Shown in pieces: positions 35,738-60,770 of a stretch of 64,000 nucleotides of DNA. The stretch spans positions 14,897,811 to 14,961,810 of the forward strand of contig NC_049986.1 of NCBI RefSeq assembly GCF_000003815.2, read 5' to 3'. The notes below the pieces were generated by a model. It saw nothing but the letters and a program-made list of their open reading frames with translations, did no database searches and was not told the origin of the DNA. The stretch comes from Branchiostoma floridae. Taxonomy: Eukaryota > Chordata > Leptocardii > Amphioxiformes > Branchiostomatidae. How positions within the stretch are numbered: the first letter of the stretch is position 1; the number at the start of each line of letters is the position of its first letter. Position numbers and translations under genes: made by a program.

Positions 35738-37078
35738 TTAGACACCCTCGCCTGATCCCTCCGGCACTGGAGCCTCGGTCACTGCCGGCACTTGAGACTC
35801 GAGTGTGCAGATGCCCTTGTAACATACTGTGCGCTGGACACACTCACAGCTGGTCTGCAGGGTCGCGTCACACGGCCAGCCCAGGTGAGGCCTCAGCTCA
35901 CACTGTCAAAATAAACAAGCGCTTGGTGTTACTGTCAGCACGATTAACAAACAAGCAAACATTACACGCATTACATTACACATTAAAAGATATTTGCATC
36001 TTTTCTAAAAGAGAGAAAAAAACTGGAACAGTTTAGTACTAAGGTCAGTCGCCAGGAGGCCAATAATCTCAAGACGTAACCACATACCAAATATCATCAC
36101 AACCCATTCAGAGGTTATTAAGTTATGCTAACCACAAATATCCGGCATCATAAGCATTAACTCACACACACAAACTCAAAGACAGACCAAAAACAATGCC
36201 TCCCTTTTTCATGGAGGTACTAGTAACAACGACAGTACTTACCACAGGCAATCCGAGGAAGACGGTGTTGGAGCGGCAGCAGTACCGGTTCGGGTCGGGA
36301 CAGCTCGCGTCGCCGTTACAGATCGCCAGCGGGTTCCACAGCTGACCCTGGAACACGGCAAAATACCTTCAGTGTCGTCAACTTTAACGGTTGGATTTAT
36401 ACATTAGTTTGTTTTGCGATTTCTATGTTACTTAAGTTCAAATATTGAAAGAAAGTTTGGACTCATGTATCTTCATTCATTCACTGTTCATAATTTGAGT
36501 GTCTTGTCTTGTCTTATCTTATCTTATGTCTTGTTTTCCATCATGTGCTAGTGGCGGCGAGGATATAAGTTGTGCAGAACTTGAGTTACGCAGTCTATTG
36601 GATGTTTTCTTTGGATGAAAAAAAATTGAACACTACTCGATTGATCGCTCTCTATAGCTAGCACAACGATACTCCCGCCATCTTCTCAAATGATTGAGGG
36701 AGCAAATGTATGATTGAATAGGTCATCGGGTGACGACATGATATGAGATTGTAATGTCTCCAAGTTGATTTCTACCCAACTACGATATAGCTGACTAGCT
36801 AGGTATTTGGCTTTCAACGTAAACATTCTTCCTTCTTACTAGAAAAATACAGACTTCTATCAAGGAATAGGTTGGCAATTGTCGTTACATGAAAGAAGTA
36901 TAACGTTACTTGATATAGATAGATACAACTTAGAAAAATTGAAGTGCTTTGGTCTACATGGTTAAGAGTTGAGATGAGGGATGTCATACATGTACATACT
37001 GATTTTATAACTTTATAGACCAGTAAAACCTACCTTCACCACCACAACACAAGCCAGGAAAAACAGAGCAACCTTCAT
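35738..37078 (-). CDS. Secreted ten-cysteine colipase-fold-like protein, array gene 1
   Basis: Three exons on minus, all phase 0: 37078-37034, 36347-36243, 35902-35738 (TAA at 35738-35740), giving 104 aa. Exon 1, MKVALFFLACVVVVK, is a signal peptide. Exon 2 gives GQLWNPLAICNGDASC and YCCRSNTVFLGLPV. Exon 3 gives CELRPHLGWPCD, SCECVQRTVCYKGIC and an acidic Pro/Val tail. Cysteine spacing is C-x5-C-x6-CC-x10-C-x8-C-x7-C-x-C-x5-C-x4-C. The CxC-x5-C block and the CC-x10-C block match colipase, prokineticin and Dickkopf C2 domains. It is the most divergent and longest copy, and lies at the FOXRED1 end of the array. It should be exported; no ligand or receptor can be inferred. No AVIT start as in prokineticins. 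Confidence 0.85.
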
Positions 37079-37489
37079 GTTGTCGAGCCGGTCAACTGTC
37101 CTACGTCAGACAAACGTTCTGTTCAGAAGCAAATGGTTGAACCCGCTCGATACCTGCTGTTTTATCGCGACTTCGCTATTACGTCCGCGGCGACCTTCGC
37201 ATATCGTCCGACTTTAGAGTTGTCCAAACGTGCGGTGTGAGCTGCCAGGTGTATCAACACACAGTCACCCACCCTTCCTATTAGGAAGCACTGTGGGCAG
37301 GAAGGAACGTGTTGGTACAAGCTATGTGTAAATAATGAGGTGATGAAGGTGTCATCTTCAAAGAAATACTGGTGTCCAGTTGATATTAGTTTGGTCGATA
37401 GATGTTGGATCCAACGGGCTTATGTGAAGGTGCAGTCGTACGAATTTTGTCCTATGATCCTAGATTCTTTGTCCTATGACATTTCGCAA

Positions 37490-37640
37490 AGGGATGTCCC
37501 TGTAGCTCAACTGGTAGCAGCCTCAAAGTTGAGTGTCTTCTTCCAGTTAGGCTCAGTTAGTAAGGCCTACGTCACATTTCCAAACTGGGGCCTGGTCGGG
37601 CAGCTTTCGGGAACGAAAAGTATGATGTAAAAGACACCAA
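37490..37640 (+). mobile_element. tRNA-derived SINE-like fragment
   Basis: TGTAGCTCAACTGGTAGCAG fits an RNA polymerase III A box (TRGYNNARNNG), as in tRNA-derived SINEs. The expected B box GGTTCGANTCC is not seen, so the head is decayed. GTCACATTTCCAAACTGG downstream matches in inverse a segment near 37770-37790. No tRNA cloverleaf can be formed. Confidence 0.45.
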
Positions 37641-38253
37641 ACTACACAAGACGTAAAGAGAGTAAGTCTTTGTTTGTTTGTTAGTCGTACGTGTGGGCAT
37701 TATTTATACATATTTTTACGTATAACGTTACATGTCTATTTTTCGTTTCCACAAAGAGTTAGGCCGGACACCGGTTTGGAAATGTGACGAAAAATAGCCT
37801 AGCTGGGTAGGGCATCTTGGTTGGGGCTGCACCCGTTTCCGGAAGGGACGTAAACGAGGTTCCGTCAAACACGTTCAAGGGGAAGGGCAAGCCCTCCTTG
37901 TAAGATATACCCTGCTACTGAAACAACAACGAGCGATGTTTCAACACTGCAGATAGTAGAGGACTACTGTGGAAACCCAAAAATGTTCCAAACTAACACT
38001 TTGTGTAAATACAACAAAGCTATGTAACAATCTATCCATACCAAGAATACTATGTCTTCATCAGCGCTTTATTAACACGTGTACTTTCTTTGTAGATATT
38101 TAATCTCCGATTTTCACATCAAATAATAACGCCTCACGTAGTATAAATGGATTTTTCACCACACCTGTTCGATTGTCGTGTTTGGATGTAATTTTACAGA
38201 GTCGACACTGATCCAATTAAACACGCTCCACTCAATGGCAGAATTCATGCTGG

Positions 38254-38259
38254 TTTATT
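38254..38259 (-). terminator. Polyadenylation signal, array gene 2
   Basis: AATAAA on minus, about 285 nt after the stop codon of gene 2. Confidence 0.5.
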
Positions 38260-38544
38260 ATAAGACTGTGATCACTTGTGTTTCGACCAGAAGTACATGA
38301 TAATACTCGTAATGATGAAACCCCAACGGCTGTTATCTGACAGTGCAGAGTCAATACGGCCGGTTGTAAAGTGACCTTACATGGACAACTGGACAGTCAA
38401 ATAACCGCTTAGTCATCATCATTTCGAATAGTTTATGTATCTAGTCGTCCGATTTGATTTTCTGTTAATTCTAGTGGGGTCTGCATATGGTAAATGTGCG
38501 TCGTGGAATCTAGGACGGTCTGCATGGGTACGTGTACGTCGGCA

Positions 38545-39790
38545 TCATCCCTCCAAGTCCACCGAGACGCACAACGCCTCCGTAGTGTTCGGCTTCATCA
38601 CGCACGAGAGACCTTCCCTGCAGGGGCAGCTGGCAAGTCCAGCGGGATCACAGGGCCAGCCGTGGTGTGGTTTAATCTCACACTAGCAACACATGAGAAA
38701 TATATCATCATCATTACAGAAAGTACATCAAGTGCTTTCAGTTCACGTGCGTCGCGTCAATTTTAATGTTTACAGCCTCAAAGGAGACCTGAAGCCAATT
38801 CATAATTGTGACGTCTATCGTAGGCATACATGTAGCTATGCTAAAATAGTAACACAGGACCCAAAAGTGTCTTTTTGTGAAGGGTCTCAGTCTGGAAGAC
38901 CAGAAACATTTGCTAGCGTGTATACGTACCATTATAACACTGATAGATGATACGCGACAACTTGTATTCGAGTGTCATATCAATGACAGATATAGATAAC
39001 TGTCTAAAACATAAATATTCAAGATAAATAGACCTGTTATATAGACTAGGCATTTTGTATCACTTTTACGTTGTCGTATCTGTGCATCTGATAGATTTAT
39101 AGCATTTTGTACTTTTTTTACTCTATGTTATCCGTTTATCACTTGCCGTCGTAAATATGTACTAACATGTTTATAGATAAATCACATTTTTTCAAGACAT
39201 GAAGTTCACACCATAGCTGAACTCCGTGTAGAGTTTACGTTCGTATGGAGTGAGATTTCAGTGCTTACGGTATGGATGCCGAATATGCCTTGGCGGCAAC
39301 ATTGGTTTTCGGGGTCCGGACAGGCCATTGCGTGATCGTGGTCATGGCATGGAGTCAGTGGATTCCAGAACTGAGCCTATAACAAAGAAATAACAAAACA
39401 TATAAGCAATAGAACAATCCTGTTATACCTGATCTTACCAGAAATACTGTTGACCATTAACGTTGTCAAACAATTGGACAGATTGCTCATCTGTCTTTCA
39501 GTGAACGCTCAATGGTCACAAACAGTCGGTCTCAACCACAAAGTCATTTTCAACTGGCTTAAAACAAACGGAGTGTTTCCGAAAAAAAAAACTTTTGGTT
39601 GCCCTTGAGCAGCCTGGCAGATAATTTGTCGCTCGACGGCTTCCGTCCCGTGAAGAAATAAACGCTTTCATAATTTGAGAGCAGATGGACATGTTCTTAG
39701 ACTGTTCTTTGTAGTTTCGGCTGAAGAAAGAGATAAACTCGCCTTGATCACCACCACAAGGCAGACCAAGAACAGCAGGGCAGTCTTCAT
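38545..39790 (-). CDS. Secreted ten-cysteine colipase-fold-like protein, array gene 2
   Basis: Exons on minus: 39790-39743, 39376-39269, 38682-38545 (TGA at 38545-38547), giving 97 aa. Exon 1, MKTALLFLVCLVVVIK, is a signal peptide. Exon 2 reads AQFWNPLTPCHDHDHAMAC, then NQCCRQGIFGIHT; Cys1-Cys2 spacing is x8, longer than in the siblings, and the insert is His/Asp-rich. Exon 3 reads CEIKPHHGWPCD and SCPCREGLSC, very close to colipase CPCERGLTC. The exon 1 donor is GCGAGT, so intron 1 would be GC-AG; no GT fits the frame nearby. AATAAA at 38254-38259 (minus) ends a 3' UTR of about 290 nt. Confidence 0.85.
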
Positions 39791-41131: not shown

Positions 41132-42226
41132 TTAAGCCTCAACTTCCAGTTGGCAGGTGGCCTGCGTCATGCTTCCCGCCATCAGCTTGCAGACGAGCCC
41201 GTCGGTACAGGGGCAGCTGGTCACTCCAGTGACGTCACATGGCCAGCCCTGCTGGGGCCTCAGCTCACACTGTAGATACAGACAGTACAAACATTAGTGG
41301 GTACTATATGACTTCTGGGGGGACATGAAGCTGTATAGCTTCTTGAGGGGTTCGTGCGTCAGTACTAGTCTTCGTTCTCTTGCAACTTGCAGAGGAGAGA
41401 GTTGCGATTGTGAACAAACTAACCTTCCCTGAGAAGAAGCTATTCACGTGATCACAGACCATCAACTTGAACCTTCATTAGGAAATCGTATTTTTGGCAA
41501 CGCCTCACTGTCAGGCCTGGTCTAGCTATCAAACGCTTAGAAGGATTATATGTACAATCCAGACCAAGGATACTGATGTCAGATTTACTTACGAGATTCT
41601 GGAAGATAACATTGTTGTAACGGCAGCAGTATCCCATCATTGGGCACTCATGGTCGCCTGCGCATGGGGCCAAAGGGTGCCAGAACTGGGCCTAAATTAA
41701 GGAGAAAAATAAAAGGTAGCAAAAATAAAACAATCATCATATCAGTACTCAAACTTGTGCATATATGAGGCAACTAGGCGTGAAAAAAAACATATTTTCT
41801 TGTATATACACACACACATCAGGTGTTTATACAAGAAGCCTAGTTGCCTCGGCTAACCTGGGCAAAGCCATGCATATGTCTTTGTATCTTTGATAGAATG
41901 GGAACGTATTCTTTGGATAGGAAATCATGGTTTGATAATATACAACCGTTAATTTCCTCTTCTGTAGCGTTAACATATCTGTGTTTTTTTTACTGCATGA
42001 AACAACCTTCTTCACGGGTCACGCACGATCTACATTGATCTAGCAGTACGTGCCCCATACTCATCCTTGTATGTAGGATATGCTTCACCCACAAGACGAC
42101 GTATATCATAAAACATGTATGGAGCAACTAATATTTTATGAATATCGTTCAAAGTTTCTAGATAGGAAAGTACAATCTTACCGCAGCCACAGCAATGAAA
42201 GCCAGGAAAAACAGAGCAGTCTTCAT
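41132..42226 (-). CDS. Secreted ten-cysteine colipase-fold-like protein, array gene 3
   Basis: Exons on minus: 42226-42182, 41691-41593, 41269-41132 (TAA at 41132-41134), giving 93 aa. Exon 1, MKTALFFLAFIAVAA, is a signal peptide nearly identical to that of gene 7. Exon 2 reads AQFWHPLAPCAGDHEC and GYCCRYNNVIFQNL. Exon 3 reads CELRPQQGWPCDVTGVTSC, then CTDGLVCKLMAGSMTQATC. Spacing is C-x5-C-x5-CC-x10-C-x8-C-x7-C-x-C-x5-C-x10-C. Introns are GT-AG, phase 0. A TATA-like TATAAAA lies at 42308-42314 (minus), about 85 bp before the ATG. A short hairpin built on GAGGCAACTAGGC sits in intron 1 (41768-41850). A secreted, disulphide-rich protein; function unknown. Confidence 0.88.
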
Positions 42227-42307
42227 TTTGCAGAGTTTCTGACACGAACGGATTTCTTCTGTTCAGGATTGGATACGAAGGAGGTGGTCACGTAGGACCA
42301 CACGCAC

Positions 42308-42314
42308 TTTTATA
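42308..42314 (-). promoter_or_regulatory. TATA box, array gene 3
   Basis: TATAAAA on minus, 82-88 bp before the ATG, at the same relative place as in genes 4-6. Confidence 0.55.
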
Positions 42315-42707
42315 GATAGTGTGGATGACGAAGGTAGATAAGGGGCCGAAGGGTAGAATAAACAAAACTGTGTGAAGTAACAGATGAACCAATACTCGCC
42401 CATCCTGTGCGGAACCAGTGCCATGAGTCACATCCGATGTTTGTCAAAGTTTTTAGCGTTCCAGAGGCTTTTGATGACGTGATATGTTACGTAGTTCCTT
42501 GTAACAGCTAGGGGGAAATCGCTGGTTAAGCCTTGTTCTTAGCAAGAAGGGCATTTACACCGCATCCCTGACAACTTACCAGCTTAAATACTTAAATGTA
42601 GCTGTGCTGTGTGACGTTAACACTGTCTGAACACTTGGCAGATGAACTTTTACCATAGCTACTATACAAAAATATCACTCAGCAAGGCAGGCGTCTGTTC
42701 ATGTTGC

Positions 42708-42713
42708 TTTATT
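42708..42713 (-). terminator. Polyadenylation signal, array gene 4
   Basis: AATAAA on minus about 200 nt beyond the stop, inside the 3' block shared with genes 5 and 6. Confidence 0.6.
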
Positions 42714-42910
42714 CTTATGCGGATCCCATCAAATGTTCTGAGCCGGTATACATGGAGGAACTTGTAATGTTGAGGTATGACCCTAATATACGAACAACTG
42801 TATCCCAAAATAACACTTATCACTACGAGTGCCCCATGTATCTAGTCAGAGGTTGAAGGATCTGCATGGAGGTGTTACGTGTGCTGGTTCTTAAGCCGAC
42901 AGCATCACCC

Positions 42911-44275
42911 CTACACTTCAGGCTGGCAGGTGTACTGGCCGGTGGTACCATCGGGCTGGCAGAGGAGACCGGTGTTGCATTCACAGCTGGACACCGCTGT
43001 AGGGTCACAGGGCCAGCCTTGGTTTGGCTTCAACTCACACTGCCAACAAAATGAATGAATCAATAAATAAATGAGTGAATGAAGGGATAGACTAATGGGA
43101 TGAACTAATGAATGAGTAATTGAACGAATGAATGAGTGAATGATGAATGAATGGATGGATCCGCATGTGTATGGAAAACACACAGACTACGACAGAATGT
43201 AAATTGAAGTTAAAATCCTTTCCAGACTTTCCGCTATATAGGGACGCTGCCCATATTCATGCATGTACTGTTGAGCCATAAGAAGCACAACACACTACAG
43301 TAGGGGGTCCACCGGTAACGACGTGTGTTAAACTCGCATACCCTTTCTCACAAGTGCCACACGCTAAGCAGAGAAACCAGTATGTAGCACTTTCCAATTC
43401 TTTGTGGGTATGGACCTGCCAGCCACTTTTTGGCTAAACACTGCGCGGCCGTATTACCTAAAACTGCGTCAATGTTTTGTACATGTTATTTTCTCCGATT
43501 TTTTTGGATAATCTTGATACTGCGTAATACGTAAAAGAAGACGACAAAATGCACAAAAAGTAAGAAAATTCGTTCTTTATCTCGAAATTCGTTGAGTATC
43601 TTTCGAACCTCTCAGTGACGCAAACGTAACGTAAATGCAGTGAGAGTGCACCTGTAGTGTTTTGTTAGGTTCAGGATAAGACACTTGACAACACACCATA
43701 CTGGACAACACAACAGTGCTGTGGTGGCAGAAGTATCTCTGGGCTGCGAAAGCTATTCACGTGACCACACACACACCTTCATTAGGAAATCGATATCAAA
43801 CGCTCAGAAGGATTATATGTACAGACCAATAATGATACTGATGTGAGATTTACTTACGAGATTCTGGAAAATAACAGTGCTGTAGTGGCAGCAGTATCCC
43901 GCCGCTGGGCACTCATGGTCGCCTGCACATGGGTGCAACGGGTGCCAGAACTGGGCCTGGGCAAAGAAATGAAGATCATTCCGGTACTCAAAATAACTTG
44001 TACGGAATCAAGCTTTACTCTGAAACAAACGTTTAACGTCAGCAATGAAGACATTGCGGCAGGAACCTACTTCATCTACGCATATGCAGCCTGTGCGTCC
44101 CTATGGTTTCCATGGGGAAAATGTTGTCAGTTGATCAGGCAAACGACATTTTAGGTCTGTGTTTCTCTCATTGGGCTAATTGTGTATGAACATCTATCAG
44201 TTGAAGTGAAGATGACAAGAGGACACTTACCGCGGCCACAGAGAGGCAGGCCATGAACAGCAGAGCAGTCTTCAT
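42911..44275 (-). CDS. Secreted ten-cysteine colipase-fold-like protein, array gene 4
   Basis: Exons on minus: 44275-44231, 43956-43858, 43039-42911 (TAG at 42911-42913), giving 90 aa. Exon 1, MKTALLFMACLSVAA, is a signal peptide. Exon 2 reads AQFWHPLHPCAGDHEC and GYCCHYSTVIFQNL. Exon 3 reads CELKPNQGWPCDPTAVSSC and CNTGLLC, ending TCQPEV. Exon 3 is almost identical to that of gene 6, while exon 2 resembles genes 3 and 5. This mosaic hints at gene conversion or exon turnover. A decayed second exon 2 lies in intron 2 (43701-43749). An AATG-type tetranucleotide repeat precedes exon 3. TATATAAAA lies at 44362-44370. Confidence 0.9.
43701..43749 (-). pseudogene. Relic of an alternative exon 2 in gene 4 intron 2
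   Basis: On minus it reads GAGATACTTCTGCCACCACA, then GCACTGTTGTGTTGTCCAG. This parallels the YCCHYSTV part of exon 2, closest to gene 6 exon 2, which ends in a similar CTGTTGTTCAAG. The CC pair codon and donor are destroyed. The flanking intron matches gene 5. Confidence 0.6.
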
Positions 44276-44361
44276 CTTCTCGAGCTTGTGGACCAGGAGA
44301 GGCGGAACGATTCTCAATGACTACAACTGAGAGTGGGGGTCTCTCACACAGTACGGGCTAG

Positions 44362-44370
44362 TTTTATATA
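44362..44370 (-). promoter_or_regulatory. TATA box, array gene 4
   Basis: TATATAAAA on minus, about 90 bp before the ATG, within a block conserved in genes 5 and 6. Confidence 0.65.
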
Positions 44371-44905: not shown

Positions 44906-44911
44906 TTTATT
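44906..44911 (-). terminator. Polyadenylation signal, array gene 5
   Basis: AATAAA on minus about 210 nt beyond the stop codon, in the conserved 3' block. Confidence 0.6.
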
Positions 44912-45118: not shown

Positions 45119-46416
45119 TTAAGCCGACGGCTCCACTACAGGCTGGCAGGCATACTGTCCAGTGGTACCCTGAGGCTGGCAGGTAAGACCCTCGTTACAG
45201 GGACAGCTAGACACGTTCGTCGGGTCACAGAGCCAGCCTTGGTTTGGCCTCAACTCACACTGCCGACAAAATGAATGGATGAATGAATGAATAGATAAAT
45301 GAATAAATGAGTAAATGGAGGGATAGACTAACGGATGAACGAATGAATGAGTAAATGAATGAGTGAGTGAGTGAGTGAACGAATGAATGAATGAATGAAT
45401 GAATGTATTAGCATATGTATGACGAAGACCCAGACCATGATAGAATGTAAGTTGAAGTTAAAATCCTTTCCAGACCTTTCGCTGGTCATATTCGTTCATA
45501 TAGCCATAGAGAGCACTACGGGCCCACCGGTAATGACGCGTGATCAACTCGCATACCCTTTCTCACAAGTCCCACATCTAACAAGCAGAGAAACCATGAT
45601 ATGTCATTTTCCAATTCTTTGTCGGTATTTCCGGTGTCGCACACACAGATACATTTGGAATGCAAGCCATAAATTGCGCCCGTGTACAATCCATGACAGA
45701 TTGTTCCTTTTTGGCTAAGCACTGCACGGCCGTATTACCTAAAACTCCTGTCCACACGGGTACTTAGTGTTTTGTTAGGTTCAGGATAAGACATTTGACA
45801 ACACACGAAACTGGACAACACAACAGTGCTGTAGCGGCAGAGGTATCCCTGGGCTGCGGAAGCTATTCACGTGATCACAGACCTTCAAAACCTTCATTAG
45901 GAAATCGAATTTTTGGCCAATGCAAGGCTCACTGTCAGATCTGGTTTATCCATCAAGCACTTAGAAGGATTATATGTACATCCAGGCCACGGATACTGAT
46001 GTTAGGTTAACTTACGAGATTCTGGAAGATAACATTGTTGTAACGGCAGCAGTATCCCATCCCTGGGCACTCATCGCCGCTTGCGCATGGGTGCAACGGG
46101 TGCCAGAACTGGGCCTGGGCAAAGAAAAAAAAGACCATTCAGTAATGAAGACATGCGGCAGGAATCTACTTCATCTACGCATATGCAGCCTGTGCGTCCC
46201 TATGATTCCATGGGGAAAATGTTGTCAGTTGATCAGGCAAACGACATTCTGGAAGATAACATTGTTGTAACGGCAGCAGTATCCCGTCGCTGTAACCTTT
46301 TCCTTCTCTCTTTGGGCTAATTGTGTATGAACATCTATCAGTTAAAGTGAAGATGACGAGAGGACACCTACCGCGGCCACAGAGATGCAGGCCAGGAACA
46401 GCAGAGCAATCTTCAT
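45119..46416 (-). CDS. Secreted ten-cysteine colipase-fold-like protein, array gene 5
   Basis: Exons on minus: 46416-46372, 46114-46016, 45259-45119 (TAA at 45119-45121), giving 94 aa. Exon 1, MKIALLFLACISVAA, is a signal peptide. Exon 2 reads AQFWHPLHPCASGDECPG and GYCCRYNNVIFQNL. Exon 3 reads CELRPNQGWLCDPTNVSSC and CNEGLTC, ending ACQPVVEPSA. All ten cysteines are present. Two relic exon-2 pieces lie in its introns: 45811-45859 (old) and 46245-46285 (near-identical to the working exon, so recent). TATATAAAA is at 46489-46497. An ancient-to-recent duplicate of gene 4, sharing upstream, intron and 3' sequence with it. Confidence 0.9.
45811..45859 (-). pseudogene. Relic of an alternative exon 2 in gene 5 intron 2
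   Basis: Same position and form as the relic in gene 4: GGGATACCTCTGCCGCTACA, then GCACTGTTGTGTTGTCCAG on minus. It predates the gene 4/5 duplication. The Cys-Cys pair is lost. Confidence 0.6.
46245..46285 (-). pseudogene. Recent partial copy of exon 2 in gene 5 intron 1
   Basis: About 41 bp identical to the 3' part of gene 5 exon 2 (46017 onward), encoding GYCCRYNNVIFQN. It is absent from the matching place in gene 4 intron 1, where ACGACATT continues directly into the shared sequence. It has neither acceptor nor donor. Confidence 0.75.
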
Positions 46417-47025: not shown

Positions 47026-50000
47026 ATCACTTCACTTCACTTTCACTTTATTTATTTTACCAGTAATTACATCTCAGGCCGGAAATCGGCCTGCTTTTCA
47101 GGTAATCCTGGACATAAAAGTACAAAGTACACATAGCACATATACAATACATAATAAAATTATCCAATATCAAAGTCCAGACTACGGAGCATCAGCCAGA
47201 TCAAGTTCTAATTCTCAATGAACTTCTTAAAAGTCCTGAGGCTGAGCAATTGCCGTTGCTTTAGCGGTAGTGAATTCCAGAGGAAAGGTCCGTAGGACTG
47301 TAGACTGTTTCGGAATGCAATGACTCTTGCTGGTGGACACCAGAGTAGGTGAGGGTCGTAGTCCCTTAGACGTTTTACCTCTGACCGAGTAGGGCGTACA
47401 CTCATTGTTGGTGGAGCCTCCCACTTGAACAAAGATGCCAAGTACGCCGGCGCCTTTCCACGAATTGTCTTAAAGACAGTAACAAGAGTTGTAATTTCTG
47501 TCCGTTTACGCACAGAGTCTATCCCTGCCTCTGCTCTCAAGTTGTCGACTGTCACGTGGTCTCGGAGTTTATGTCCTGTGATGAGCCTTGCATCCCTGTT
47601 TACCAGTCTATCCAGCTGTAACATAAGAGTTTTGTTGCCTTGTGCAAGGCTTGGTAGCCATGCTGTGGCGCAATACTCCAGATGAGCCAGTAGTAGTGTC
47701 TGATACATGGTTTTCAGCACTTCGTTCGTAACAAAGGCTCTGGCACGTCCCATTGCTCCAAGTCCGCTAAGAAGCTTCTTCGTGATTTTTTGTACATATG
47801 CTGCCCACCTGAGCGCTGGGTCAAGAGTAATGCCCAGTTAAGTGAACGAGTCAACTTGTTCGTAAACGTTCACACCGTCTGTTATGTTGACGGTTGTCCC
47901 AGCATGCTTCAGTTTCTGAGGGAGCCCGAAGAGCATCGATTTGGTCTTGTCTGGGTGAAGCAGTAACCTGTTTTCACTTAACCATTTTACCACTCTCTTC
48001 ATGTCCATAGAGACAGTCTCTTCACATACCTTCACGGAAACAGCAGAATAGTACAGGACCGTATCATCTGCGAACATGTGAATACTGCATTTTTGGATGA
48101 CATTGGGTAAATCGTTAACATACAAACAGAATAATAGCGGACCTAGGACACTTCCCTGAGGTACCCCACAAGAGACTCGAGTTTTTGAAGAGTATTGACC
48201 CTGAAGACATGTGCACTGAAGGCGCTCAGAGAGGTAAGATGTAAACCATTTCATAGCGTCACTATCGAAGCCAAACTTCTTGAGTTTACTTAACATAATC
48301 TCGTGGTTGACCGAATCGAATGCCTTCCTTAGGTCCAGAAATAGTGCCACTGTGACCTTAGAGCAGTTGTACCCAGATGTAATGTCCTCGACAACCTTCT
48401 GTACAGCCGTCGCAGTGCTATGGTGCCTTCTGAACCCACTTTGGTGAGTCGTGAGAAGTTTACATCTGGTCAGGTAACGTGTCACTTGATTGCATACAAG
48501 CTTTTCCATCATCTTCGAGGTAACACTTAGAACTGACACAGGGCGATAGTTTCCGACATCAGCACAGCTTCCAGACTTGTGTACAGGTGTAATCTGTGCC
48601 TCCTTCCAGTCAGATGGAACCTCTCCAGAGGCGAGAGATAAGTTAAATATGTGTGCCAATGGCTTTGCGACCACTGGGGCGGAGTCTTTGAGAAGTTTGG
48701 CTGGAATTTTGTCCAACCCTGTTGCTTTCTTCGTTTTTAACTTTTGAAGTTCATTTAACTCTTCAGTCTCTTCCACACAGTCAAAGCTGAACTTCGTCGT
48801 GGAATCAGGGATGTGGCGAAGAGGATCTTCCTCGGAATCTGGCATCCCATCTGTAAGTCGTGAAGCGCAGGATGTAAAGTAGCCATTAAATTCCTGTGCC
48901 ATTTCACCTGGATCAGACATGGAAGTGTTGTCAGCTCGTAGCAATTTCTGGACTCGCTTTGTTGATTTTGATTTCCCTGTGAAACTATTAATAATTTTCC
49001 ACATGAGAGATTGGTCACCCTTAGCTTCAGACACAGCTGTGGCAAAGTGACTTTTCTTCTCCTTTCTGATGATGGATGTTGTCTGGTTTCTTAGAGAACG
49101 GTATGTATCCCAGTCCTGTACATCTTTTGTTCTGATGGCTTTGCGTCTGGCAGCGTCCCGACGACCCATCATGTTTTTCACCGTATCAGTCATCCATGGA
49201 GCTGGGCGGTTGTTTTCCCGAGCAGTTTTCGTACGGAGCGGGGCATGTTCGTCGGCGACATTCAGGAAAATGTCCTTAAATGCATTCCAGGCCTCGCTAA
49301 CATCCGTGCAGTCGAATACTGTATCCCATCTAACTGATTTTAAACTGTCGATGAAGGACTGCTGTGTGTAGAGCTTGTACGACCTGTATTCGCACCTGTG
49401 AGCAGCACCAGCCTCACTTCCAGCTTTGGCACATGTCAGAATGAGGTTGTGATCAGATGGCCCCCAGGCCACACTTGCACTTGACTTGTAGCGGTCCGGG
49501 TTAGAGACAAATATGTTGTCAATACATGATTCGGTTTTCTCTGTAATGCGGGTTGGTTCGCGTATGACAGGGACTAGCTGGTACAAACCCATCAGGAATT
49601 CCACTGAGGACATTGCTTGAGTTGAGGTAAGTAAATCGGAGTTGAAATCTCCCATGATAGCGACGTCTGCGTTTTCTTTCTCTGCCGTTTGATTGAGTTT
49701 GTGCACAAGTGATTCAGCAGAGTTTCTCTAGTCAGGTCCAGATGTCGGCGGTCGGTAGACGCAGGTCAGCAGAGTCTTTCTCGCCTTCTCCGGTTTAATC
49801 TCGACACAGCAAACTTCAAGGTCTTCCTGCTCGAGCTCACAACGTCGCTGAGACGCAATCGTCTGCTTGACATAGACGCCTACGCCCCCACCTTGCCTGA
49901 CTCTGTCCGTCCTGTACAAGGTGTAGCCATTGATATCCACAGAAGAGTCAGGGATACTATCTGATAAACGGGTTTCATTGAGTCCTAATACATGTATACG

Positions 50001-50335
50001 AGTGTTCCTAAGAAGTAACTGCTGGATTTCATCTAGGTGTCGTGGGAGGGAGACCACGTTGTAGAAAGCATACACTATGCCCTTCCTCCAGACAGGTAAT
50101 CCCCCGGTATCAGGTCCCGGGTTAGGCGAAACATCACCAGCCAGTAGTAACGTTGCACAAACAAGTAAGTTAAACGTCCGTTCGGTCCTTTCCGTGCATG
50201 TAGTTGATCGACCAATGAGTCTTACTCCAGACAGTCCAGGATTGATTTTTACGGAATAAGCATTTTGTGTAATCCAAGTTCCACTTTGTAAGTGAACATT
50301 AGTAGTAGCCTTATCCCACATAGGGACTAGGGCTA
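47026..50335 (-). mobile_element. Nearly intact CR1/L2-type LINE with 2A-like N-terminus
   Basis: One reading frame runs from 50321 to 47208 on minus (1,038 codons), broken only by two in-frame stop codons. In order: a leader with 2A-like LLLAGDVSPNPGP (residues 58-70); an APE-type endonuclease with LGLNETRLSD, GGGVGVYV, MGDFNSDL and SDHNLI; a reverse transcriptase with ITPVHKSG, NYRPVSVLS, FLDLRKAFDSVNH, SCGVPQGSVLGPLLF and MFADDTVLYYS; and the C-terminal region with HLEYCATAW and FLWNSLPL. No ORF1 gag-like frame lies upstream within the element. The 3' end on minus finishes in AGTGA-type repeats near 47026-47040, as usual for the CR1/L2 group. The few breaks mean it is young. It stands just downstream of the 3' tail of the second LINE. 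Confidence 0.9.
50112..50150 (-). other. 2A-like ribosome-skipping motif, LINE 1
   Basis: LLLAGDVSPNPGP fits the 2A pattern D-V/I-E-x-N-P-G-P except that Glu is Ser. In 2A peptides the ribosome skips the last Gly-Pro bond. CR1-clade LINEs of sea urchin and lancelet are known to carry such peptides. The Ser variant may be weak or may serve as a signal peptide instead. Confidence 0.6.
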
Positions 50336-52179
50336 AATCAAAATCATAATCCGATCCAAGGTCAACAGTTTGGGAGGTCAGAGGTCACTACTCAGTACTG
50401 AGACTATGTTAGGTCTTTCAAAGCTGACTTAAATGAATTTAGGCTTTGAACTTGCTTAATGTAGGCTGGAAGTGAATTAAAGTGTTTAGCACCTCTGTAT
50501 GAAAATGTACGCTGTCCTGTTGTGGTCTTGAAAAAGGGTTTGTATAGGAGTGATGTCTGTCTGGATTGGTAATTGTGTAAGTTGTGGTTGTGAGAGAAGA
50601 TGGATGATAGGTATGTTGGTGCTAGCCCATTGATACACTTGTAAACCATAATGCACACATGATCCCGCCTTCTCCCTGCGAGTTACTGCCAGCTGAGCTT
50701 CTCATGAAGGTTGAGGACACTGCTGGACTTTAGGTTGAGTTGCAGAACTACCCTGGCAGCCCGGTTCTGTAGCACTTGGAGTTGTTGTTGTCTCCCCACT
50801 CCGCAGCTATCCCACACGGTGTCACAGTAATCCATAAGGGGGAGTACCATTGCTTTATACAACATATCAGCTATATTTACAGTGAAGCAAGGTCTAAGAC
50901 GTCTGAGTAAACCTACTCGTTGGGTTACCTTTGAGCAGAGTTTGTCAACATGTTCATTCCACAACAATTTGTCATCAAGAATAAGCCCTAGGTATTTAAA
51001 TGAAACGACTCTTTCTATTGACTCTAGTCCAATTTTGATTGACACTGGATGTGCTTTCTTAAGCTTACCACTGCTCCCAAAGAGCATCCACTTTGTCTTT
51101 GAAGCATTTAGGGTCAAATGGTTTAACTGGAACCATGTAGCTATATGAGAGAGTTCTGAATTCAGAGTGGCTTCAATGTACCTAGTGTCATTACTGGAGC
51201 AAAAAATTGCCGTATCATCAGCATAGAGACATACTTTGTTGGAGATACAGTCAGGTAGATCATTTATAAACATAATAAATAACCCTTGTGGCACACCTAC
51301 TGTCACTGGGAGATAATCAGATACACAACCGTCTAGAGACACTGTCTGCTTTCTATCAGATAGGTAATTTGTGAACCATTTGAGTTCTACATCTTTAACC
51401 CCAATCCAGGACAGTTTCTTCAGTAACAGGCAATGATCTACTGTATCAAAAGCCTTTTTCAGGTCTAAAAACACAGCCCCCCACTAGGTTTCCACTGTCA
51501 ATGTTTTGATACACATGGTCAGTGACATCCAGTAATGTAGTAGCGGTGGAATGACCTGGCCGGAACCCAGACTGCTGTTCAGAGAGAATGCTGTGATGGT
51601 GGAAATATTCCAGGAACTGACCATGTATCTCTTTTTCAAAAGCTTCATGATAACTGGAAGAACAGATATAGGCCTATAATTATTTGGATCCTCTTCCCCC
51701 CCCCCCCCCCTTTGTGTATTGGGGTCACCTTAGCTGTTTTCCATTCCTTAGGAATGATACCAGATGAGAGAGACAGATTAAATATGTGGGCCATAGGTTT
51801 GCATATACACGGTGCAGCTGCTTTAAGCAGTCTTGAGTGTATCTTGTCCAACCCTGTGGCCTTGTTAGTCCCTAAGACTCTGAGCTTGTCGTATACAGTA
51901 ACTTCTGTTACCTCCTTGAAGGCGAAAGTGGATGTTAGCTTCTTGTACTTATCTGGGCAAACCAAGTTACCTGTCTGTTTCGTGAACTTTTCAGCTAACT
52001 TGTTTCCAATGGAAACAAAGAAGTTGTTGAAACAGGAGACTATGCTAGAGGGGTCCTTGTAGAACTGCCCTCCCCAATGAAGTGACTTGGTAACAACAGG
52101 GTTTTTGTTTGGAAGTACTTCCTTTATTGTTGCCCATAACTTACTTGCGTTTGACATATTTACCTGCATGTATGCAGGT

Positions 52180-54172: not shown

Positions 54173-55254
54173 TTAGTTTTTGTTGACAGTACATTGCTTT
54201 GTGGACTGTAGGACACTGTCCCAGCTTAGTGTTCTTAGATGGGTCAGGAAATTGTTCTCATCGAAGTTGGAGAACTTGCGTGAGGTGATATATCTAGGTG
54301 CTGATTTGAGTCGCTCTGCTTTCCTGACACAGAAAACTGCATAGTGGTCCGAAAGGGTGGAGTGCACTACACCATGCTCACACACCTGATGTAAGTCACT
54401 ACAGTAAATGTGATCAATTATAGTACTCGAATGTTGGAGCACTCTTGTGGGCTTATCTATTACCTGCTGTAGCTGGTATTCCTGGCTAAGGTTTGTGATG
54501 TGTCTGGCTCCTGATGTGTCTGTGTTACTCAGGTCAATGTTCATGTCCCCAAGCAGGAACAGTTCTGAGTTTGGAGTGCAGGTGCTCCAGGTCTCTAGAC
54601 TGTCTCTTAGCAGTGAGAAGGCACATCCACTGTGGCATTTGGAGGTCTGTAGATAGAACCAACAACAATAGGTTTGGTAAAGGGCAGCTGGATTTGGCAG
54701 AAAAGTGCCTCTAATCCAGGTTGTGTCATATCTGTCCTCTCAGTGTGGCTATATGCTTCAGACACATAAATTGCGACCCCTCCCCCAAACCGATTCCTGT
54801 CCTGTCTGTATAAGTGATACCCATCTATGCATAATTCACTGTCATGGATAGAGTCATCAAGGTGGGTTTCGCTGACTGTCATAATATCAACATTATTTGT
54901 AGACATAAATACATACAGTTGGTCTAGCTTACTATACAAGCTACAAATATTAAGATGTACCATGATTAAGCCCTTTGATGGTGGTATCGTAGAATTACTT
55001 TCTGAGATTTCTTCTTCATTTGCAGTATCAGAATCATCACTACAATCGTTACATGAGGAATCAAAAAAGGAATCACTAAAACAGGGAAGTAGGCAAGGAT
55101 TGCAGTACCAATAATCGTCGGAATTAGCCAGTGTATGATATTCTTGAACATCCATGCCTGTACAGTTAAGATGATACCACTTGTCACACAAGTCACAGCA
55201 TATTCCTTTTTGATTTTTTCTTACACACCTGTTACAGATACCACAGGGATCCTT

Positions 55255-55296
55255 TGGCCCAGGGTTAAGTGATACATCACCAGACAAGATCAGCAG
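55255..55296 (-). other. 2A-like motif, LINE 2
   Basis: LLILSGDVSLNPGP near the start of the LINE 2 protein, immediately before the PHD finger. Glu of the 2A consensus is Ser, as in LINE 1. A hydrophobic run precedes it, as in 2A peptides that double as signal sequences. Confidence 0.6.
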
Positions 55297-55343
55297 TGTG
55301 TAAGGTGTAGGACCCAAGACAACTGCGATGTACCATTGGGCGG

Positions 55344-55948
55344 GAAGAGGTTATATTTGTAGGAGGATCACATTTTAAAAAGAGACAAAGAAATAGAGAT
55401 ATTTGAAAGACGGACAAAGAAACGAGACCAATTCTCTAGGCATAAGCAATGAGAAGATATTGTCTTCAAGTAGTCTCGTAACAGACCGTGCACCAAACGG
55501 GGGTTGAAAATCGTGCCATATATGGGCAATTGAGCACTTAGTGACGATTTAGCTTGAGTTTATAATGATTATTTAGTCAGGCATATGTATCGAAATGGAA
55601 GGCTCTGCATGGCGGTTCTGGATGCTCTGATTTTAACCATCGATTGTGTATACCATAACCACTATACATAAATACACCATGCCACTCCATTCAGCAAGGC
55701 AAGCGTATGTTCACGTTGCTTTAATATACGGATCCCATAAAATGTTCTGAGCCGGTATACATGGAGGAACTTGTAATGTTGAGGTACCTTACGCCATACA
55801 CCAATATTGTGGATCATCAAATGACCCTAATATACGAACAACTGTATCCCCAACTAACACTCATCCCTACGAGTACCCCATGTATCTAGTCAGAGGTTGA
55901 AGGATCTGCATGGAGGTGTTACGTGTGCTGGTTCTTAAGCCGACGGCA
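55344..55948. other. Spacer before array gene 6
   Basis: GAGGTTATATTTGTAGGAGG and the next 120 bp match 57983-58090, so this is genomic flank of the array rather than LINE. The gene 6 3' UTR follows, with ATTAAA at 55720-55725 on minus. Confidence 0.65.
55720..55725 (-). terminator. Candidate polyadenylation signal, array gene 6
   Basis: ATTAAA on minus at the place where genes 4 and 5 have AATAAA in the shared 3' block. Confidence 0.5.
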
Positions 55949-57482
55949 TCACTCCACTTCAGGCTGGCAGGTGTACTGGCCGGTGGTACCATCGGGCTGG
56001 CAGAGGAGACCATCGTTGCATTCACAGCTGGACACCACTGTAGGGTCACAGGGCCAGCCTTGGTTTGGCTTCAACTCACACTGCCGACAAAATGAACGAA
56101 TGAATGAATCAATCAATCAATAAATGACTGAATGGAAGGAAGGATAGATGGATGACTGAAGACATGAATGGATTCGCATATGTATGACGAAGACACAGAA
56201 TATGACAAGTTTAAGTTCAAATAACCTTCCAACTACTGTAAATGCAGAAATGTTCGCGGTGGATTAATGTTCGCGGTGACCACTTCACCACGAATTTAAA
56301 ACCACCGCGAACATTTTCTATTATGATATTAGATTGCAGTCTATGGTGTTACCGCGAACTTAAATCCACCGCGAAAAGTCCTTTCTCCCGCTACCGCGAA
56401 ATCAAATCCCCGCGAACTTAAATACATTTACAGTATAGGAACGCTCGACCACAGAAGGCATTAGAGTAGTTGTTAGTCCACTGCTGGTAATGAAGTGTGT
56501 TAAATTGTAATACCTCTTCTCATAAGTGCTAGGTGCCATTTTCCAAGTGTTTTTTCGGCGTGTCGCCCGCCTTTCAAACGCAAGGCAAAAGCTTTAAATC
56601 AACCCACCGCCCCATCTAGGACAGAATGTTCCTTTGCTCCTTGACCAAACGCATGCCTACTTAGTATTATTACCTACTTAGTACATAGTATTTTGTTACG
56701 TTGAAGTAAAAACCAGTGACAACTGACAACTCACCAGCTTGAACAACAGAACTGTGCTGTAGTGGCAGCAGTATCCCGTGGGCGGACACTGTTGATCGGT
56801 TTCACATGGGGCCAAAGGATGCCAAAACTGGGCCTGGGAAAAGAGCAAAAAGAACGTTCCGGTACGCACAATAACTAGTACGTAATCAAGTTTTTACTCT
56901 GAACCAGACCTTTAGCATTACCAGTGAAGAAATGTATGGTACGGAGCAAGGATGTTCTTCATACACAAATTATGCATCCCGTATGCTTTCTGTGATGAAA
57001 ATCTTGTCAGTTGAGCTATGTCGTGTTAAGACAAAAGACATTTCACGTTAGTTTTTCTCTTTTTTTTCCTCTCAATTTCATTTCAGTCCATGCTAATTGC
57101 TGCTTGTTGTGATATGTAGTATATCAGCGTGGGTTTTCAATTGTAAATTGCATCAAATCATACTTCGATGAAGGTTAGACATCCAGGTAATAAGGTACGA
57201 CAAAAAGCAGTTACTCAATCAACTGGATATGATTTTGGACACAGAAGACATCGGGTAGAAACCAGTTCCTTGAGTAGCTGCTTTTTGGAGCATCAAATCA
57301 TCCTTACAAAGAGGGATGAAAATGATTGCAAAACACAAGACAATTCCCTCTCTCCCATAGCTATGCAATACATGTGTACGGGCTAACTGTGTATGAACGT
57401 CTATCAGTAGAGGTGAAGATGACGAGAGGACACTTACCGCGGCCACAGAGATGCAGGCCAGGAACAGCAGAGCAGTCTTCAT
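55949..57482 (-). CDS. Secreted ten-cysteine colipase-fold-like protein, array gene 6
   Basis: Exons on minus: 57482-57438, 56833-56735, 56080-55949 (TGA at 55949-55951), giving 91 aa. Exon 1, MKTALLFLACISVAA, is a signal peptide. Exon 2 reads AQFWHPLAPCETDQQCPP, then GYCCHYSTVLLFKL, a distinct version whose relatives survive only as relics in genes 4 and 5. Exon 3 reads CELKPNQGWPCDPTVVSSC, then CNDGLLC and TCQPEVE. Exon 2 donor is GTGAGT. A TIR element sits in intron 2 (56234-56435) and a retroelement fragment in intron 1 (57174-57290). TATA box at 57572-57578. A secreted disulphide-rich protein of unknown function. Confidence 0.9.
56234..56435. mobile_element. Short TIR element, TACTGTAAATG family, copy 2
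   Basis: Nearly identical to 28772-28983, with the same ends TACTGTAAATG and CATTTACAGTA. It is 10 bp shorter through loss of TTTTCGCGG after TTCGCGG. It lies in intron 2 of array gene 6 and is absent from the matching introns of genes 4 and 5, so it came after their split. Confidence 0.85.
57174..57290. mobile_element. Fragment related to the 4734-5487 element
   Basis: GTTAGACATCCAGGTAATAA and CAAAAAGCAGTTACTCAATC, then AACTGGATATGATTTTGG, match the left end of the larger element. An inverted CCTTGAGTAGCTGCTTTTTG follows. It is in intron 1 of array gene 6 and has no hammerhead-like core. Confidence 0.65.
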
Positions 57483-57571
57483 CTTTCCGAGATTGCGGAC
57501 CAGGGGAGGTGAGGAGAGGCGGAACTATTCTTAATGGGTAGAGTGGGGGTCTCTAACGCGGTGCTGGGTGG

Positions 57572-57578
57572 TTTTATA
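57572..57578 (-). promoter_or_regulatory. TATA box, array gene 6
   Basis: TATAAAA on minus about 90 bp before the ATG, in the block shared with genes 4 and 5. Confidence 0.6.
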
Positions 57579-58524
57579 CGGGGGCTGCTAAAGAGCAAGG
57601 TACAAGAATAGTTTAAGTCATGTTTAACTTGTTCGTCATGAGCGGAATTGATGTTCGTGACAGGCTAAAAGGTCACATTTGAAGGGCATTCTCAAGGTTT
57701 TAGTGGCGCGATGTGTCACGTGGTTCCTGTTGTTGTTAAACCTCCATCTATCTGTCAATCTATTTCATCCATCTGGAAAGGTATCCTATTTCTTAGCTAT
57801 CCATTTCAGCATTTTCTTTCCTTTTATTTAATAGTGTTCATTGAAAAGGAAAATGTTTTTGAAACATGTAGAGTCGAGTGATACCAATAACGCCTAAACT
57901 ATGTACAGTTCGGACGCGCAACCTGTCACCCATTCCCTGCGACTACAATTAGAAAAACTATATTCGGCGGAATGAGGTTATATTTGTAGGAGGATAAGAT
58001 CTTTACAAGAGAAACGACCAAGAGACAAAGAAAATGGACCAATTAATTCTCTAGGCATAAGCTGTGAGAAGATATCGCCTTCTTGTTGTCTTGCAATAGG
58101 CCGTACAACACAGGGCCGCACGGTGCCATCTTCTGACTGTTTGCCGATCTTGCGTCGGTGATATTCCAGAACTTGACGGTACGGTCCAAAAACTCTTATT
58201 TGTCATTGGGCTTTCTTTTTGAAGCAAAATTTGATGACCAGTATTAATAGAATTAACGTAGTGTGCTTCTATTCAAACAGGGTGACATTTAGTACTTGTC
58301 ACGTAGCAGACAAAGACAAACAAAGCTCACACTTACTAGATTAATTAGATGACAGGGAGAGATGTTGAAATTGACTCACGACTGTTAAAACCTTCCATGA
58401 TATTGACATCTCTACAACGTTGCAAAACTAAACTGAACTAAACTGATCCTTATCACGTGCTTATCCGTGTCAGTTCTAGTCCACGTGTCACCATTGTTAT
58501 CTAAGACTTGTACTATATCTAACG

Positions 58525-58925
58525 TAGTGGTGCGTACCTAAAGCCCGGACTTGGAATTGGACCTAAAATGTAAAAAAACCCTCTAAATGTCCGGAGCCAA
58601 GTCCGGACTTGCAAAAAGCAATCTGTCACTTATATTCCCTTTTTTGTTCTAAACCATCTAAAACCTTCCATAGACAGTGAAATATGCACTGGAAAAAGAC
58701 AAAAAAGTTCGTGTTTACACTGGCTGTCTATCATTTTCATGTAATTTTCACATTGCATTTCCATTCATACTAACATGCAATTTTATATGCACCACCCCCC
58801 TTCCCCTAAAACAAATGCACATAATATGTGATGATGAGTTGAGGTCCGGACTTTAAGTCCGGACCTGAACCTGAACTGCTGGACCTGAATCTGGACCTGA
58901 AATTGAGTTTAGGTACGCACCACTA
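58525..58925. mobile_element. hAT-like short TIR element with 8-bp TSD
   Basis: Perfect 18-bp inverted ends, TAGTGGTGCGTACCTAAA and its complement, with perfect 8-bp flanking repeats ATCTAACG (58517-58524 and 58926-58933). An 8-bp duplication and TAGTGG-type ends indicate the hAT superfamily. Interior, 401 bp in all, is non-coding, with repeated GTCCGGACTT and GGACCTGAA segments. Confidence 0.85.
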
Positions 58926-58975
58926 ATCTAACGTCAACTATGTTTACTTTTTTTTGCAAATACTGCTTCAGGTCG

Positions 58976-59016
58976 CAATTAGCCTTCGGGCAAGAACTTG
59001 CAAATAAAATTATCTA
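58976..59016 (+). mobile_element. 3' tail of a non-LTR retroelement
   Basis: AATTAGCCTTCGGGCAAGAA, then CTTGCAAATAAAATTATCT, matches the tail at 17503-17546. Confidence 0.55.
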
Positions 59017-59216
59017 TGTTTACTACTGACTCGTTTGGATCCTTCCTGTCTTCTTTATATGATATAAGCATCCATCACTGTCATAATGATAATACATCCG
59101 ACACCGTGAGTGGTGCCAGTACCTTTCGCATCCAGTCTTTGCATAGCTAATTAGCTATTTAGGTTTATGTAAAAAGAGAAACATACAATACATTCAATAT
59201 GAGATGGCACATCCAT

Positions 59217-59222
59217 TTTATT
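59217..59222 (-). terminator. Polyadenylation signal, array gene 7
   Basis: AATAAA on minus, about 370 nt beyond the gene 7 stop; the inserted TIR element accounts for 172 nt of that distance. Confidence 0.45.
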
Positions 59223-59346
59223 TATCATCAGATGAAACCAACTGAAAAATTACATTGTCTTGAGATTTGGAGGCATGATTCCCTGTGAACGGCACAGAAA
59301 GAAAGATGGAATATCGTGCCATATATGGGCAATTGGGCAGTTCGGT

Positions 59347-59518
59347 TAATCTCCAAGCAGATCCTACGATGGCATAAGATAGTACTAAGCTGGCCAAGGA
59401 GTGTAGTCAGCTAAGAGGTGTGCATTTGCCTTGTAGCAAACACACTCCTAAGCCGGCTTCACTCTTCTACCAGCTTTTGATACTATCTTATGCTACCGTG
59501 AGATCTGCTTGGAGATTA
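59347..59518. mobile_element. Short TIR element, family M, copy C (9-bp TSD)
   Basis: 172 bp with ends TAATCTCCAAGCAGATCC and, reverse-complemented, TAATCTCCAAGCAGATCT. Flanking 9-bp repeats are CAGTTCGGT (59338-59346) and CAATTCGGT (59519-59527). It is the cleanest of the three copies and serves as reference for copies A and B. It lies in the putative 3' UTR of array gene 7. Confidence 0.85.
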
Positions 59519-59592
59519 CAATTCGGTAACGGTTTAGCTTGAGATTGTATCACAATGGAAGGCTCTGCATGGCGGATATGCATGTTCTGATT

Positions 59593-60770
59593 TTAGCCAC
59601 TGATTTGACATGTAGCCCCCGTGCTGCTGTTCGGGTTCGGGGCGCACGTCAGGTCGGCGCTTGCGCATGGGCAGTCCGTCTCCGGCCAGCAGGCCCAGCC
59701 CTCCATCGGTGTGAGCTCACACTGCAAGCAAAAGTCAAAACAATTTAGTATGTCTGTGCTGTGTGGCGTCGCCAAAAGTCTGATTCTTTGATCGATTAAT
59801 CCTTCGATGAAATTTTCAAAACCGACTGCAATAAACTTAACGCTCCACATCTGTGGTGTCTCCAAGATGCGAGATGATACCGACATTACAGGCATCAACC
59901 ATTATTCCTGTCCAAAGTTATGAGATTTGAGACAAAGCTGACCTTTTTGTAGCCAAGAGATTTGTTGTAGATGCAGCAGTACACATCCGCCAACGGGCAG
60001 TCATCGGCGTCGTCACATGGGTCATTTGGGTTCCACGGAGTCCACTGAGCCTAATGACAAACAAACCAACATATTTTATCGCTCACATACAAAACCTCCT
60101 CACAAGTAATAATCACTACGCATTTATACCGAGTGTTTGTAGGATTATAAACATGTTTATGTAGTAGGCAGAAGCCCATGCATGTTTCTGTGTCATGGTT
60201 CTGTGGCGATCATGCTATTCTGATGTGACGTTTTGCCACTCGTCTTGCATGGTTTTAGAACTTAACAGGCAACAGTATAATTATGGACAAACACTCCGGA
60301 ATTCCGGAAAACCTTAATAATTTCAAAATAGATTGACCAGATGAACTTATATTTGTATGTATGATATATCAAAGGATAGTGAATATGCAAGTTGCAATTA
60401 AATGTCTCTACGAAGAAAGGCTGCCGAATTCTGGCTCAGGTTCCCAGAATTCTGGCAGAATCCGCAGAATTCTGCAGAATTGGCCTTCTTTATGGAGACA
60501 TCTAATTGCAACCTATATATTCATCATCCTTTGATAATATCATATCTACAATTACAAATATCAATTCATCTCGTTAATCTATTTTGAAATGAATCAAGGT
60601 TTTTCGGAATTAAAGTGTTCGTCCGGAATTATACTGTCGCCTGTTACTTGAGGAACAGTGAATGCTTTGTATTATAATTGCAAGTCACGATACAGCATTG
60701 TAACAGCGTAAAGAGGGAAACTTACCGCAGCCACAGCAATGAATACGAGGAAAAACAGAGCAGTCTTCAT
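59593..60770 (-). CDS. Secreted ten-cysteine colipase-fold-like protein, array gene 7
   Basis: Exons on minus: 60770-60726, 60050-59943, 59721-59593 (TAA at 59593-59595), giving 93 aa. Exon 1, MKTALFFLVFIAVAA, is a signal peptide. Exon 2 reads AQWTPWNPNDPCDDADDC and VYCCIYNKSLGYKK, three residues longer than in genes 3-6 and more acidic. Exon 3 reads CELTPMEGWACWPETDC and CASADLTC, ending TCQISG. All ten cysteines are present; Cys6-Cys7 spacing is x5, shorter than the x7 of its siblings. The exon 2 donor GTCAGC is weak. A 376-bp foldback element fills much of intron 1. TTTAAAA near 60852 (minus) is a poor TATA candidate. It is the right end of the array. Confidence 0.85.
60267..60642. mobile_element. 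376-bp foldback element in gene 7 intron 1
   Basis: Left AGGCAACAGTATAATTATGG and the reverse complement of the right end AGGCGACAGTATAATTCCGG match, and the arms continue for about 170 bp each (through TTTCAAAATAGATT and TATCAAAGGAT). The centre has repeated GAATTCTG. Non-coding. Confidence 0.8.

Follow-up and report, generated by a model that had tools for sequence, protein, structure and literature searches.

Colipase-type domains pair their ten cysteines as C1-C4, C2-C5, C3-C7, C6-C9 and C8-C10. We describe a tandem array of seven predicted ten-cysteine genes in a 64,000-nt stretch of the Branchiostoma floridae genome (C8:14897811-14961810, where C8 is our label for the contig; hereafter the window) and compare it with the closest described proteins. 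Porcine colipase contacts lipase through Glu15, Leu16, Arg38, Glu45, Glu64 and Arg65 (PMC7094207). Mature prokineticins begin with a conserved N-terminus that is key to signalling (PMC8877203), and twenty predicted prokineticin-receptor-like genes are reported from B. floridae (PMC2246102). Dickkopf C2 is a ten-cysteine domain of colipase type (PMC6425005). Hydra NDA-1 is a secreted, colipase-like, antibacterial protein that is cationic and taxon-restricted and has a C-terminal part predicted to be cleaved (PMC5614986). The octocoral colipase-fold peptides are secreted, come mostly from multidomain precursors and are described as lacking AVITG (PMC11896702). The matches listed for colipase, prokineticin and dickkopf in amphioxus, Branchiostoma and invertebrates include no published account of the array genes.

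We rebuilt the seven genes, G1-G7, exon by exon from genomic DNA; the gene models are predictions (Table 1). All are on the minus strand, with outermost coding bases 60770 and 35738 (window coordinates), and all seven show the three exons and phase-0 introns that the initial annotation had placed there. The phase follows from the exon lengths, each of which is divisible by three. Exon 1 (45-48 bases) codes for a signal-peptide-like MK.AL.F... in every gene, exon 2 carries C1-C4, and exon 3 starts at C5 and carries C5-C10, with intron 2 immediately preceding the fifth cysteine (7/7). Intron borders are GT-AG throughout, except that GC replaces GT after exon 1 of G6; either a GC-AG intron is in use or this gene is damaged. 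The donor of G1 exon 2 is weak (GTCAGC). Five of the seven genes have a TATA-like box 81-96 bases upstream of the ATG, and all have AATAAA or ATTAAA within 500 bases past the stop. Exons of different copies match one another down to E ~1e-19 in a search within the window alone, and whole-genome searches recover the array exons; chance cannot explain this repeated structure. The array is real and intact-looking, with one questionable splice site in G6.

Table 1. Coordinates of the array genes and other features (window positions unless a contig is given)
Feature	Position	Strand	Exons or parts	Amino acids	Remarks
G1	59593..60770	-	60770-60726, 60050-59943, 59721-59593	93	
G2	55949..57482	-	57482-57438, 56833-56735, 56080-55949	91	
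G3	45119..46416	-	46416-46372, 46114-46016, 45259-45119	94	mosaic
G4	42911..44275	-	44275-44231, 43956-43858, 43039-42911	90	mosaic, same pattern as G3
G5	41132..42226	-	42226-42182, 41691-41593, 41269-41132	93	
G6	38545..39790	-	39790-39743, 39376-39269, 38682-38545	97	GC donor after exon 1
G7	35738..37078	-	37078-37034, 36347-36243, 35902-35738	104	longer Pro/Glu tail
Extra exon 2 fragment	46243..46284	-			inside G3 intron 1; 93% to G5 exon 2 over 14 residues
Long interspersed nuclear element (LINE)-type retroelement pieces	47208..51483	-	RVT_1 over cut-off at 47838-49727 and 50683-51483; elsewhere reading frames only		between G3 and G2
Second LINE-type piece (type is our interpretation)	54607..55350	-	PHD finger over cut-off, endonuclease below		between G3 and G2
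Candidate colipase gene	C5:9591217		domain exons at ~1-130 and ~650-860 of the fetched locus (L041)		Colipase_C over cut-off

The mature part holds ten cysteines in all seven proteins, as first described; in G7 the last of them does not line up with its counterparts in the other six. The spacing in G2-G4 is C-x5-C-x5-CC-x10-C-x9-C-x7-C-x-C-x5-C-x10-C, and G5 ends in x11. Two parts of the originally proposed pattern did not hold: C5-C6 is x9 in every copy instead of x8, and the first-half form C-x5-C-x5-CC-x10-C is exact only in G2-G5 (4/7). C2-C3 is x6 in G1, G6 and G7; C1-C2 is x8 in G6; and from CC to C5, G6 has x9 and G7 has x11. For C6-C7 and C8-C9, G1 has x5 and x6 and the other six have x7 and x5. 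C9-C10 spans 10-11 residues in six copies and 4 in G7.

Kinship with colipase was detected with a family profile built from the alignment of all seven proteins and searched against 177,635 distinct sequences of the Protein Data Bank (PDB) at E up to 10. The profile gave exactly three matches, all of them colipase (E=0.0011-0.0025), with C1-C9 in register. With G5 alone, the top three matches were again colipase (E=0.063-0.23); viral glycoproteins came next, starting at E=0.66 and no better than chance. Of four shuffled profiles, three matched nothing and the other, the third, matched one antibody (E=0.41). The first two of these controls moved gapped columns too and did not fully preserve spacing; the later two kept gapped columns fixed, although the alignment tool then realigned them. 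A further control permuted the gap-free, non-cysteine columns of the mature part 300 times with the alignment preserved, so that the out-of-register cysteine of G7 was the only cysteine moved. None of the 300 permuted profiles reached the real score on the colipase fragment (19.2 bits; best permutation 14.7) or, by a narrow margin, on the genome's own colipase gene described below (16.2 bits; best permutation 15.5). Because no cysteine-preserving permutation reaches the colipase score, the match exceeds what cysteine spacing gives.

Several results weigh against this kinship. A Pfam scan of the seven proteins placed no family above its cut-off (0/7), which includes the colipase, prokineticin and Dickkopf profiles against which the initial annotation had proposed to check them; the best match was G5 to the Dickkopf C-terminal subdomain DIKK1-2-4_C-subdom2, below cut-off at E=0.03. 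On six prokineticin-like domains of the same genome, 0, 2, 2, 11, 20 and 20 of the 300 permutations reach the real score, so that in five of the six domains between 2 and 20 permuted profiles equal or beat the real one. On one such domain a permuted profile scored 18.6 bits, which exceeds the 16.2 bits of the real profile on the genome's own colipase gene. The array matches the prokineticin-like domains weakly in hhalign (probability 13%, P 0.0022) and the colipase gene at 11% in a profile-profile comparison; the prokineticin-like domains and the colipase gene match each other at 96%.

The array could also be some other cysteine-rich module, WAP- or granulin-like in its first half and with no colipase kinship. 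C-x5-C-x5-CC does resemble WAP or granulin, and several unrelated folds have the cysteine motif found in exon 2; that no Pfam family passes its cut-off would agree with such convergence. No WAP or granulin model was matched at E up to 10, which is a weak point because HMMER filters drop most matches above ~0.1. The colipase match, however, covers both halves of the domain and withstands the permutation tests, and we consider convergence very unlikely. The array is very probably a remote relative of the colipase-fold superfamily, with no closer filing, and on these profile comparisons we accept a colipase-type fold. The framework first proposed is thus upheld, with colipases as the sole PDB matches of the family profile.

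Within the C1-C9 register shared with porcine colipase, two spacings are identical to those of the porcine protein: CC-x10-C-x9-C in 5/7 copies and C-x-C-x5-C in 6/7. These identities, a C4-C5 finger that is hydrophobic in several copies (e.g. TVLLF, NVIF) and colipase as the only PDB sequence matched would all suit a cofactor role, with the array proteins as the lancelet's colipases, holding a digestive lipase to lipid surfaces. The porcine contact residues (PMC7094207), however, are gone. Arg38, Glu64 and Arg65, placed by profile-PDB alignment, and Glu15 and Leu16, placed by adjacency to C1, are conserved in 0/7 copies; Glu45, placed by the same alignment, is conserved in G1 only. C2-C3 is 5-6 residues long in the array and 3 in colipase. 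The C6-C7 finger has 7 residues (5 in G1) where colipase has 11, making it 4 residues shorter in six copies and 6 in G1, and it lacks Tyr and Phe in all seven copies and with them colipase's tyrosines.

Moreover, another gene in the genome passes Colipase_C (PF02740). A PF01114 search of the genome returned ten places, the array not among them; of the eight places read, only C5:9591217 has a colipase frame and seven are without one. The first domain exon of this gene is by itself enough for a match to porcine colipase (E=1.1e-5); its two exons joined score 34.1 bits against Colipase_C (cut-off 23.7) and 25.4 bits against the N-terminal colipase model, under the cut-off of 27. None of the seven array proteins exceeds the Pfam cut-off for Colipase or Colipase_C. 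In the C5:9591217 gene the YY finger and an end resembling IGVC are retained; like the array, the gene lacks Arg65, and Glu45 is not kept either. Its intron lies between C6 and C7, and that of the array between C4 and C5. With the contact residues lost and a separate colipase gene present, the lipase-cofactor role suggested by the initial annotation is weakened, and we regard it as improbable.

Prokineticins (AVIT family, PF06607) share the ten cysteines with the array, as well as a glycine at position 7 of the C5-C6 loop (7/7 array copies and 5/6 of the genome's own domains that were read). A PF06607 search of the genome returned 29 places, 20 of them over the cut-off, on C2, C3, C4, C9, C10, C13, C14 and C19; none of the 29 is on C8. 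Four of the 20 have internal stops, and one is over the cut-off only with its neighbours in frame. The six domains read come from the eight best of the 20 (L042-L049), after two without the full ten-cysteine pattern (L043, L047) were dropped. Each lies in a single exon, unlike the array with its intron between C4 and C5; all have CPC, preceded by FW in 5/6. Their C6-C7 segment is also much longer than that of the array.

The reported twenty receptor-like genes (PMC2246102) and the conserved N-terminus of the array proteins would be in keeping with a role as ligands of the expanded lancelet prokineticin-type receptors. Against this, none of the seven array proteins has an N-terminal AVITG or a Prokineticin match above the Pfam cut-off, and the 20 Prokineticin-domain places elsewhere fit the receptors better. 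Those places may match the twenty reported receptor-like genes, and the genome's own prokineticin-like genes are the obvious ligands for such receptors. A role of the array at these receptors therefore seems quite unlikely. Given the C5:9591217 gene and the 20 PF06607 places elsewhere, the array counts neither as the prokineticins of this genome nor as its strongest candidate for a colipase. Dickkopf proteins share a ten-cysteine domain of colipase type, to whose C-terminal model G5 comes near, but the array precursors have 90-104 residues and one ten-cysteine domain, without the N-terminal Dickkopf domain. As judged from the lost lipase contacts, the absent AVITG and the single domain, membership in colipase, prokineticin or Dickkopf fails.

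Copies and exons of the array are unequal in age, since synonymous divergence (dS) differs by exon and by pair. In exon 1, dS is near 0 among G2, G3 and G4. Exon 2 of G3 has a dS of 0.06 to G5 and 1.16 to G2; for exon 3 the values are 1.40 to G5 and 0.49 to G2. We counted sites over the exons plus 20-60 flanking bases. In the region of exons 1 and 3, G3 has 74 sites in common with G2 alone and 10 with G5 alone, and in the region of exon 2 the counts are 15 and 48 (Fisher P=8.6e-16); for G4 they are 89 and 5, and 18 and 38 (Fisher P=1.6e-16). Both P values are indicative, as adjoining sites are not independent. G3 and G4 are thus mosaic, with exons 1 and 3 like G2 and exon 2 like G5. These counts are best explained by exchange of an exon 2 tract, in one direction or the other, between G5-like and G3/G4-like copies, by gene conversion or unequal crossing-over. 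The extra piece of exon 2 within the first intron of G3, 95.8% identical to the G5 gene region over 48 bases, fits such an exchange. The G3/G4 exon mosaic is new here.

Rapid diversification had been expected of the cysteine module. Its loops are indeed variable, but the ratio of nonsynonymous to synonymous divergence (dN/dS) of the mature part is 0.23-0.73 in all 20 computable pairs (of 21), several of which are near saturation. The mature part is under purifying selection overall, and on these pairwise values we reject positive selection across the mature region as a whole. In place of simple rapid diversification, exchange of exon 2 is well supported.

Three array proteins, G5, G7 and G1, were searched against the whole genome (431 contigs, 513,431,437 bases), and all three recovered array exons. 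Matches off the array numbered 1/15 for G5, 2/13 for G7 and 0/5 for G1 (E 0.127-0.71); we set these three (on C7, on C5 near base 4243 and on C10) aside, as they show no ten-cysteine frame on their own strand. In 20 kb upstream and 10 kb downstream, a pattern scan and tblastn of the seven proteins found no extra copy; the best tblastn match there has E 0.021, and the flank matches lack the cysteine frame. Within these genome searches the family is confined to this locus, and the local expansion originally proposed is borne out in this genome. A tblastn search of a phage collection with G5 found nothing, the collection being uninformative for an animal gene.

Near the start of contig C5, positions 4243-4392 hold a short segment, GLGWTCDVTLEKGC, that is similar to the C5-C6 loop of G7 (E=0.164) and lacks the rest of the frame. 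It is either a chance match or a degraded relative.

Conservation along the proteins is uneven. Mean pairwise identity is 66% in the N-terminus, 66% in the C5-C6 loop and 67% in the signal peptide, and 18-43% in the remaining segments between cysteines (leaving out the single C7-C8 residue). One tryptophan is invariant (7/7) in the mature N-terminus, within Q-[F/L/W]-..W-[H/N]-P, and another in the C5-C6 loop, within E-[L/I]-x-P-x-x-G-W, mostly followed by P. The -3,-1 rule is a guide to signal peptide cleavage sites, and by it cleavage would fall directly before the invariant glutamine. Expression, secretion, the exact cleavage site and a possible pyroglutamate N-terminus are all inferred. 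In colipase, the C5-C6 loop holds the lipase contact Glu45 (profile-PDB alignment; PMC7094207). All seven proteins are acidic, with an isoelectric point of 4.05-5.26 and a net charge of -4 to -8 at pH 7.

The array, whose secretion is predicted, resembles Hydra NDA-1 and the octocoral peptides as secreted colipase-like proteins; the octocoral precursors are mostly multidomain (PMC11896702) and those of the array single-domain. As in Hydra, where a colipase-like antibacterial peptide with a ten-cysteine fold is described (PMC5614986), the array could supply defence or microbiome-shaping peptides, and its tandem arrangement, exon exchange and variable fingers would suit an immune role. NDA-1, however, is cationic, with a C-terminal part that is predicted to be cleaved off, and the acidity of the array proteins argues against a cationic antibacterial of this kind, as does a dN/dS below 1 in every computable pair. 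We find this explanation unlikely.

We instead favor, at about even confidence, a secreted acidic colipase-fold family of extracellular ligands or modulators, encoded by tandem duplicates with exchange of exon 2. After the predicted signal peptide, the mature proteins would have ~74-88 residues in a colipase-type fold with five disulphides, and the array would form a remote branch of the colipase/prokineticin/Dickkopf-C2 superfamily. Tandem duplication would have generated the copies, between which exon 2, the C1-C4 half, would have been exchanged relative to exons 1 and 3. The proteins probably act extracellularly as ligands or modulators of one shared partner protein. Going by conservation alone, this partner may be recognised through two tryptophan surfaces, the mature N-terminus and the C5-C6 loop; the variable remaining fingers would tune individual copies. 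This mechanism is a guess made from sequence, held with moderate confidence.

Other features of the window include LINE-type pieces (Table 1). Positions 29115-33784 (plus strand), by the array, hold exons of a flavin adenine dinucleotide (FAD)-dependent oxidoreductase (DAO) gene, with two frames over the cut-off and one below, and positions 21729-24162 (minus strand) hold exons of a DUF229 gene, which we take to be sulfatase-like, with one frame over and one below. A perfect inverted repeat of 293 bases (4767-5059 and 5197-5489, with 137 bases between the arms) could reflect either a recent foldback element or an assembly fold.

Colipase-fold proteins serve uses as diverse as fat digestion, hormone-like signalling, Wnt control, venom and antibacterial defence. 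The useful additions here are exon exchange and the finding that the genome of the array also carries a colipase gene and numerous prokineticin-domain places. A more specific possibility, which we put forward tentatively and think fairly unlikely, is a lancelet-specific recombining ligand array, in which phase-0 introns split the signal, C1-C4 and C5-C10 parts and halves are swapped, while a common receptor or enzyme partner is retained through the two tryptophan surfaces. If true, swapping would join a variable N-terminal half to a C-terminal half in new combinations. With three kinds in one genome, namely one gene that passes a colipase model, 20 prokineticin-domain places over the cut-off and an acidic array set apart by its intron position and exon exchange, B. 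floridae offers a clear setting for asking how the colipase fold found new uses close to the chordate root.

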